Positions 41,192 through 42,151 of a stretch of 42,151 nucleotides of DNA are shown here, in pieces (within the stretch, counting starts at the first letter, position 1; every line of letters starts with the position of its first letter). The notes beneath the pieces are model-generated. The model saw only the letters and a program-made list of their open reading frames with translations. It had not been told where the DNA came from and did no database searches. This DNA is from Halorubrum persicum. GTDB lineage: Archaea; Halobacteriota; Halobacteria; Halobacteriales; Haloferacaceae. Position numbers and translations under genes: made by a program. Where the stretch lies: assembly GCF_002727125.1 (NCBI RefSeq), contig NZ_NHOA01000003.1, positions 1 to 42,151 on the forward strand, read 5' to 3'.

Positions 41192-41659
41192 ATGGCGACG
41201 AGAAGCGAGGTCGAGATGTCCGACGCGGAGGTTGACGCGCTCCTGTCCCGGCACGAGACCGGGGTGCTGTCCCTCGCGCGCGACGAGACCCCGTACGCGA
41301 TCCCGATCTCATACGGATTCGACGAGGAATCGCGGCACGCCTTCCTCCGGCTCGTGTCAACGCCCGACAGCGAGAAGCGGAAGTTCCTCGCGTCCACTCC
41401 CCAGGCGCGGATCGTGGTGTACGAGGAGGGCGGCGAGAGGGACCGCGAGGAGTACGCGAGCGTCGTCGGCGTCGGCACCCTCCACCGGGTCGACCTCGAC
41501 GATCTCACGCCCGAGTCGATCGCGCAGTACGGCGAGGCTCGACGGCCGCTGTTCGAGATCTGGGCCGAGGGGAAGGCGGACCTCGACATCGAACTGTACC
41601 GGTTCGAGCCCGAGCGGCTCACCGGGCGCACCGTCGTCGTCGACCGCGACGAAGAGTGA
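41192..41659 (+). CDS. Pyridoxamine 5'-phosphate oxidase-like flavin-binding protein (155 aa)
   Basis: A split-barrel FMN-binding fold. EVDALLSRHETGVLSLARDETPYAIPISYGFD is the characteristic opening of PNPOx-related proteins, followed by LRLVSTPDSEKRKFLASTP and IVVYEEGG...YASVVGVGTLHRV. The function may be an FMN- or F420-linked reductase rather than PNPOx itself. ATG 41192 is supported by TATA CTTTATG (41160-41166) centred about 28 bp upstream, so the mRNA is leaderless. No neighbour clarifies the substrate. Confidence 0.88.
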   Translation: MATRSEVEMSDAEVDALLSRHETGVLSLARDETPYAIPISYGFDEESRHAFLRLVSTPDSEKRKFLASTPQARIVVYEEGGERDREEYASVVGVGTLHRVDLDDLTPESIAQYGEARRPLFEIWAEGKADLDIELYRFEPERLTGRTVVVDRDEE

Positions 41660-41762
41660 ATCGGTAGCTCGTCGATCGTGTCTCACCGGCGCGTACCGCC
41701 GGTCGTCCGTGAGCCGTCGACTCGAGGGGTTCCGTTCTCGTTGCTGGTTACAAGGCTCTCGG

Positions 41763-41891
41763 CAGCCCTGCGGTGAACACCTCCGAAGACCCAGTCGGGA
41801 GGTCTCACGCGACTCGCAGTGGTCTTCGGTCCTCGCGTCGTCGCGCTTCGCCCTTCCAGCCGGGGATTTGGAGGTTGGCGCCGCCGGGCTG
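41763..41891. repeat. 129-bp MITE-like palindromic element
   Basis: The two ends are imperfect inverted repeats about 36 bp long (25 of 36 matching), with outer CAGCCC/GGGCTG and inner ACCTCC/GGAGGT perfect cores. Inside, CCGAAGACC (41783-41791) pairs with GGTCTTCGG (41821-41829). It lies in the gap between the flavoprotein gene and the partial gene at the right edge. No ORF is present. This fits a miniature non-autonomous repeat of the kind dispersed in haloarchaeal genomes, or an RNA structure. Confidence 0.55.
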
Positions 41892-41946
41892 TCGGAGTTC
41901 GGTTATCACCGAGAGCGATCGGGTTTCGACGGCGGTCTCCCGCAGT

Positions 41947-42151
41947 TCACGCCGACGAACTCGTGGAGTTGGTCGCGGAGTCCGAGGCCGAAGCGCTTCC
42001 GCTCACGCTCGTCGAGCCGCCGAGGAGGGAGCGGTTCGAGTCACCGCGCAGCGTGGTGACCGTCTCGCCGTTGTGTCTGACGATCAGGGTCCACGGGCCG
42101 TCGCCCGCGGGAATCCGCATCGTCCCGTTGTAGCGGGCGACGCCCGTGGAC
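41947..42151 (-). CDS. C-terminal end of a probably exported protein (runs off the right edge)
   Basis: Sixty-eight codons with a clear stop at 41947-41949. The visible part reads STGVARYNGTMRIPAGDGPW, TLIVRHNGETVTTLRG, then a tail rich in Ser, Thr and Ala (SVSGSASASDSATNSTSSSA). The beta-strand pattern followed by a Ser/Thr-rich end suggests a cell-surface or secreted domain, perhaps O-glycosylated. The rest of the gene, including any signal peptide, is outside the window, so the identity is unknown. Confidence 0.7.
   Translation of the reverse strand, partial: STGVARYNGTMRIPAGDGPWTLIVRHNGETVTTLRGDSNRSLLGGSTSVSGSASASDSATNSTSSSA

Follow-up and report, generated by a model that had tools for sequence, protein, structure and literature searches.

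The closest counterparts in print to the repeats described here are those inventoried in Haloquadratum walsbyi as MITEs, PATEs and SMRs (PMC3119063). In the portions of that inventory used here, SMRs measure about 110 bp or less and make no target duplications, and PATEs lack terminal inverted repeats (TIRs) and are related to IS605. SMRs and PATEs resemble the family we describe in Halorubrum in that all are haloarchaeal repeats rich in palindromes, lack a transposase and insert into one another. The Haloquadratum MITEs, as the same portions present them, are likewise short and transposase-free, with TIRs, some target duplications and many intergenic copies. However, the Halorubrum elements differ from these MITEs in their length of ~600 bp, in their nested arms and three-hairpin core, which varies with pairing kept, and in a linker that is commoner than recognizable inner ends. 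Identity with SMRs, as described in those portions, was rejected on the same length together with the TIRs and 8-bp duplications. We recognized no description of the Halorubrum repeat in the text available from the literature searched, which included few subscription papers (sources included PMC5018182, PMC10544981, PMC2841640, PMC7986276 and PMC10927574).

The window, the whole stretch of DNA analyzed here, comprises 42,151 nucleotides of Halorubrum persicum. Near its right edge, the first-pass annotation had noticed a palindromic, MITE-like repeat. Our best reading is that the Halorubrum family consists of MITE-like elements with an unusual architecture and that the window copy is a scar of this family. 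More specifically, we estimate a probability of roughly 70% that the window palindrome arose as a rearrangement junction joining two copies of this family and has since decayed.

Composition of the window palindrome

The long nested stems that had been noticed at 41763–41891 are real and slightly wider, at about 41754–41899. This interval forms one long imperfect hairpin with an RNA minimum free energy of −87.8 kcal/mol (z = −4.99), and none of 200 dinucleotide shuffles folds as well. Raw folding energy alone is unexceptional in this GC-rich window, where 12 of 840 segments of the same length are at least as stable. The unusual trait of the palindrome is its nested inverted arrangement, not its raw energy. 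With three mismatches or fewer allowed, a search for its motif CACCTCCRAAGMCCCAGYCG finds a single occurrence in the window, against an expectation of 0.05. The place had also been said to hold no ORF, which is correct for likely genes, although several mechanical ORFs cross it.

The palindrome belongs, in degenerate form, to a family of repeats dispersed in Halorubrum genomes. Left-end unit A (41748–41781, plus strand) carries a TATA-like box, TTACAA, at 41748–41753 and the palindrome GGTGAACACC at 41772–41781, the same layout as in relatives, with a spacing of 24 nt from box to GGTGAACACC, unlike the 23, 26 or 29 nt of most family left units. A remnant of hairpin H1 (41771–41874, minus strand) matches R2, a covariance model of the left unit and H1, at 46.0 bits (E = 1.1e-9); on the plus strand, R2 scores only 14.6 bits at about the same place. 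Left-end unit B (41853–41910, minus strand) is inverted and makes up the right arm of the palindrome. It has a TATA-like GATAAC on the minus strand, and its reverse complement, CTCCGACAGCCCGGCGGCGCCAACCTCCAAATCCCCGGCTGG, resembles left units. R1, a model of the linker and of hairpins H2 and H3, has no match at the window element, its best score being 13.7 bits elsewhere. The window copy lacks the right half of the family. Both of its arms are left-end units, in opposite orientation, and such units belong to the interior of the element. The earlier view of these arms as terminal inverted repeats that end an element does not hold.

Nor do the flanks of the window copy show a target-site duplication beyond chance: the best match is 6 of 8 bases, which 835 of 2000 random places equal. 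The suggestion of a mobile miniature element therefore applies to the family, which is dispersed, intergenic and MITE-like, but not to the window copy, which has neither TIRs nor a duplication of its own. This bears on the alternative that the palindrome is a stand-alone short MITE or small mobile repeat bounded by its own TIRs. Its ends do self-pair and its relatives are multicopy. However, the relatives' BLASTN matches, among those listed, lie mainly in the left half (approximately query positions 15–115 of 161), complete copies have other ends, the flank duplication is at chance level, and the two sides of the palindrome fit two syntenic elements, so that we regard this alternative as highly improbable.

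The copy-number check by BLASTN proposed in the first-pass annotation bore out a repeat. Besides the window itself, the window element finds three weak matches in its own genome at E < 0.05, the next best being 78% over 73 bases, and the same genome holds 14 to 16 copies of the linker; 16 is among the fewest in the genus. All but one (L221) of 14 own-genome linker loci match R1 or R2 at 46 bits or more. The inner TIR pattern has no match anywhere in the genome, and the outer-arm pattern has three, all on other contigs. Several copies or matches sit at or near the ends of contigs C68, C106, C47 and C10, so the draft may undercount the family. Misassembly of the window copy itself is also conceivable, because 252 bp separate the element from a contig end in a draft of 158 contigs. 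An assembly chimera, in which two contig ends were joined at a repeat, would suit this setting and the other matches at contig ends (C68 and C106). Against it, the assembly contains the window sequence only once in identical form, and hence no shared k-mers are visible that could have caused a false join. We consider such a chimera improbable.

Architecture, spread and mobility of the family

Complete copies are ~580–660 bp long and end in GGCTCTGTTGAAAT inverted repeats. From the outside in, an 8-bp target duplication, the GGCTCTGTTGAAAT ends and two different outer arms are followed in many copies by an inner inverted repeat, GATCGATAGCGGGAGTRGGTATHGCA. Within these lie at least one left unit, hairpin H1, the linker, hairpins H2 and H3, and a TATA-like box on the right. 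Each left unit contains a TATA-like box and GGTGAACACCTCCAAAGCCCCAG, and tandem units recur at ~57 bp. Of 82 left units, 52 have the box 23, 26 or 29 nt ahead of GGTGAACACC; in the units of loci L060–L178, these spacings, which change in steps of three, account for 10, 37 and 5 of 52. On the right, a TATA-like box is present in 51 of 80 copies (2 and 0 in control windows), in 45 of the 51 at 7–11 nt outside the right end. The boxes fit putative promoters on both sides, though TTTATAAA reads both ways. At one locus (L079, 3259–3569), the 57-bp left unit and its TATA-like box occur six times in tandem, and several other loci have at least two units. In some copies, the loop of H1 or H2 encloses additional small hairpins. 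By eye, L061, L087, L129 and L134 carry hairpin modules within H1 (AAAGGCGC...GCGCCTTT and others) that are variable with pairing kept.

Ends and duplications are directly observed in a subset of copies. The inner repeat delimits 33 non-redundant copies, and the linker is present in 32 of them. Both outer GGCTCTGTTGAAAT ends are recognizable in eight of the 33, and also in L098. A target duplication of at least 6/8 accompanies three of these eight, whereas 2000 permutations gave a mean of 0.13 and a maximum of 1. The numbers of matching bases are 8, 7 and 7, then 5, 4, 4, 3 and 3, which leaves five copies without a recognizable duplication. Exact 8-bp duplications occur in L279 and L098, and 7/8 duplications in L271 and L294. 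L098 is a 605-bp copy without the inner repeat, flanked on both sides by exact ACAAATTG. The genome richest in linkers (G051) has 195 of them compared with 23 recognizable inner ends.

The family is found throughout the genus. A scan with the 21-base linker, allowing up to two mismatches, found 9 to 195 copies in each of 52 Halorubrum genomes out of 52; the reversed linker, used as a control, gave one match in all of them. R1 likewise matches 52/52 genomes of the genus, with up to 63 candidates scored per genome. At E ≤ 1e-3, BLASTN with the window element matched 21 of 39 genomes including its own, made up of 19 of 22 other genomes of the genus and one of 16 outside it. That sole match outside the genus (L049 in G025) fits neither R1 nor R2 and is probably due to chance. 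A pattern scan of named genomes gave at least 119 stretches, all from Halorubrum among the matches listed. In an order-wide sample, R1 reached E ≤ 1e-4 in 46 of 146 genomes, nine of them from the genus; the remaining matches are weaker and count as candidates only. A plasmid BLASTN search returned four weak matches, three of which were examined, and copies were confirmed on plasmids of Halobaculum (L372; R2 at 87 and 74 bits, R1 at 45 bits) and Natrinema (L373; R2 at 83 bits, no R1 match). A viral or phage origin was rejected after a pattern scan of viral contigs and a BLASTN search of phages each gave no match.

No called gene contains any of the 106 copies examined. Elements stand between convergent genes in 38 of 96 cases, compared with 24 of the 303 other gaps that measure 100 bp or more; for divergent genes the figures are 13 of 96 and 137 of 303. 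These counts come from a home-made gene caller and exclude 10 of the 106 elements that lie at locus edges. We did not adopt a terminator function, because this distribution also fits selection against promoter insertions.

Orthologous sites display both states expected of a mobile element. Nine gene pairs that flank an element in Hrr. halophilum were traced in eight relatives, and the sequence was read at four; some of the nine are non-adjacent in some relatives and were left unscored. The same gene pairs are filled (411–567 bp) in some species and empty (3–105 bp) in others. At one gene pair, two species carry the core in opposite orientation (L065 versus L254), and with respect to the outer arms the core is found in either direction. 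At another, flanking arms common to three species enclose very different H2 and H3 stems. With its many dispersed copies, TIRs, target duplications and filled and empty orthologous sites, the family is MITE-like.

Similarity of ends points to a candidate mover. In an element at L228 (170–1161), an IS5-family transposase (NF033579, 217 bits against a cut-off of 140) lies beside GGCTCTGTTGAAATCCTCAGAGAG. One end of this insertion sequence reads GGCTCTGTTGAAATCCTCAG, like the MITE end; the other, left end is degenerate, and no duplication is present there. A transposase of this type may be the autonomous partner of the family. Acting in trans, it would move copies on their GGCTCTGTTGAAAT ends and make the 8-bp duplications, a putative mobilization that the degenerate end of L228 qualifies. 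An IS6 transposase was also tried as the mover. In the portions available of the IS6 literature (PMC7986276), that family resembles ours in making 8-bp duplications and in having ends with a GG tip and a CTGTT motif. IS6-type transposases gave 35 matches in seven of eight genomes, and none of the 30 loci inspected is bounded by family ends; this candidate was rejected. Family ends lie near three of the IS6 loci (L299, L303 and L304). The IS6 copies have other ends, GGYRGTGTTCAGATAAG, measure 697–698 bp and show an exact 8-bp duplication in L309, L315 and L318.

Mobile insertion cassettes are transposase-less elements that carry genes. The Halorubrum family is similar in that its outer ends can enclose small genes instead of the core. 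An element at L356 (1481–2447) has family outer ends around a TumE toxin and an HTH protein (Pfam) with an exact 8/8 duplication, and one at L365 (1481–2618) has them around an Rce1-like protease (Pfam) with a 7/8 duplication; the hairpin core is absent from both. Because these gene-bearing elements have the same ends, the outer ends appear to carry different passengers, of which the core is one. Unlike a typical cassette passenger, the core is a structured stretch without a recognized gene. A strict outer-arm pattern gave 30 loci, of which only L354 has the core linker within 1 kb; six, L356 and L365 among them, have duplications of 7/8 or 8/8, none with the linker inside. Family-type ends also carry toxin-antitoxin-like genes. 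The same outer arm occurs at L347 with a PIN-domain gene whose small partner resembles AbrB at a score below cut-off, and at L343 with two small genes without a Pfam family; no matching duplication was found at the best closing end of either.

Pairing in the element core

When H1 arms were swapped between copies, pairing fell from 9.49/10 to 6.89/10, and the maximum of 2000 permutations was 7.56 (54 of 56 arms used, 39 distinct pairs). An alignment of 105 model-aligned copies from 100 loci, 104 of them distinct, has 96.5% of its H1 cells paired. Two-sided changes affect 27 of 38 pairs, with 393 double-change cells compared with 98 after shuffling, and the covariation score is 0.309 versus 0.119 shuffled and at most 0.058 in slid controls. 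Three features of this alignment favor pairing: it was fitted to the model, the sequences on which the model was trained are among its rows, and two loci, owing to the ability of H1 to flip, enter it on both strands. For H3, alifold gives 12 pairs, 10 of them with two-sided changes. H3 was the only one of the two right-hand hairpins that alifold resolved, and an arm swap of H2 in the raw register gave no excess; H2 is Watson–Crick paired in 530 of 645 cells in a register picked for best fit.

Mismatches identify the paired strand as the minus strand, the reverse complement of the GGTGAACACC orientation. In the fitted alignment, this strand has 212 G·U cells, 90 of which come from one pair, versus 32 A·C cells, and tandem GA/GA loops appear in 84 and 82 of 104 rows. 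Without a model, the three stems together show, on the plus strand, 54 A·C against 19 G·T mismatches, of which 18 A·C fall at one position; H3 is even (14 versus 12). The core thus shows compensatory pairing beyond controls that is strand specific, with conserved G·A loops.

These results agree with the folding and covariation check that had been suggested, and they remove the case of a single copy lacking conserved pairing in relatives. The proposal of a structured RNA is sustained at the level of the family, by conserved pairing and by compensatory changes in H1 and H3. At the gathering score of Rfam, the window matched no family and 12 family-copy loci matched only tRNAs; L093 gave sub-threshold matches only. 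If the RNA-like fold of the core's paired strand were transcribed, the core might be a new class of archaeal non-coding RNA of ~280 nt with three tandem-G·A hairpins, carried as a passenger in an IS5-driven, transposase-less cassette that reaches ~200 copies in some Halorubrum, its fold kept and its stems rewritten from copy to copy. We hold this as a tentative model, somewhat on the doubtful side. A transcribed core would represent an abundant archaeal RNA class outside Rfam. Even a silent core would be a natural experiment in which palindromes keep pairing while their sequence changes.

Neighboring genes and the origin of the window copy

The two sides of the window palindrome lead to two different loci in relatives. 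On the left lies a pyridoxamine 5′-phosphate oxidase-like gene (41192–41659, plus strand; PF12900, 57.5 bits), which has a match in 48 of 52 genomes of the genus. On the right, and convergent with it, is the 3′ end of gene X (41947–42151, minus strand), truncated by the contig end. Among 46 other readable oxidase loci (a 47th, in G014, stops at a contig end), six have a family element in the same place, with its left unit toward the oxidase gene. Beyond the element, all six have the same pyridine nucleotide-disulphide oxidoreductase gene, which we take to be thioredoxin reductase-like; in G019 this neighbor is present and the element absent. In 10 of 12 relatives, a family element comes after the stop codon of gene X, with its left units pointing toward that gene. 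Adjacency of the oxidase gene and gene X occurs at none of the 47 oxidase loci and none of the 12 gene X loci elsewhere, within the flanks examined. The neighbor change is therefore an observed difference. With a left half A next to a left half B, and with synteny for both genes, we read the window copy as a rearrangement junction.

The history that we propose is as follows. An ancestral copy 1 would have stood after the oxidase gene and a copy 2 after gene X, and in both the left-end unit would have pointed to the gene that the copy followed. A recombination event at the self-complementary H1, or close to it, would have joined the two left halves, bringing the oxidase gene and gene X together, and the right halves would have been lost here. 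H1 is the likely place of the crossover. The inverted left units would then give the long apparent TIR. At one gene X locus (L330), H1 is flipped relative to its own left unit.

The perfection of palindromes by template switching offers a different route to the same structure: a normal copy would have had its right end rewritten into an inverted left end, the neighbor change being a separate event. Such switching is plausible for this family, whose H1 is self-complementary, whose stems are not the same at orthologous sites, and whose cores or H1 are seen in either orientation. Yet it would need a second coincidence, as in 10 of 12 relatives gene X independently has an element that turns its left units toward it, and the right neighbor in the window differs from the reductase-like gene of seven relatives. 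We judge template switching unlikely.

Sequence comparison by itself assigns the arms of the window copy to the syntenic elements only weakly. We compared the left arm with five of the six oxidase-locus elements against a null of 113 paralogous copies. Two of the five (L183 and L184) exceed the 95th percentile and the other three do not; L183 itself sits in the null set, as L111. For the right arm, L330 scores above all 113 paralogous copies, and the other nine of the 10 gene X elements are not above the 95th percentile. Among the own-genome family loci examined, we found neither the reductase-like neighbor nor the reciprocal junction.

If our preferred reading of a rearrangement junction is correct, copies like that of the window may mark sites of chromosome rearrangement. 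On the Halobaculum plasmid (L372, 1495–1988), two elements face each other with their right ends together, an arrangement reciprocal to that of the window.
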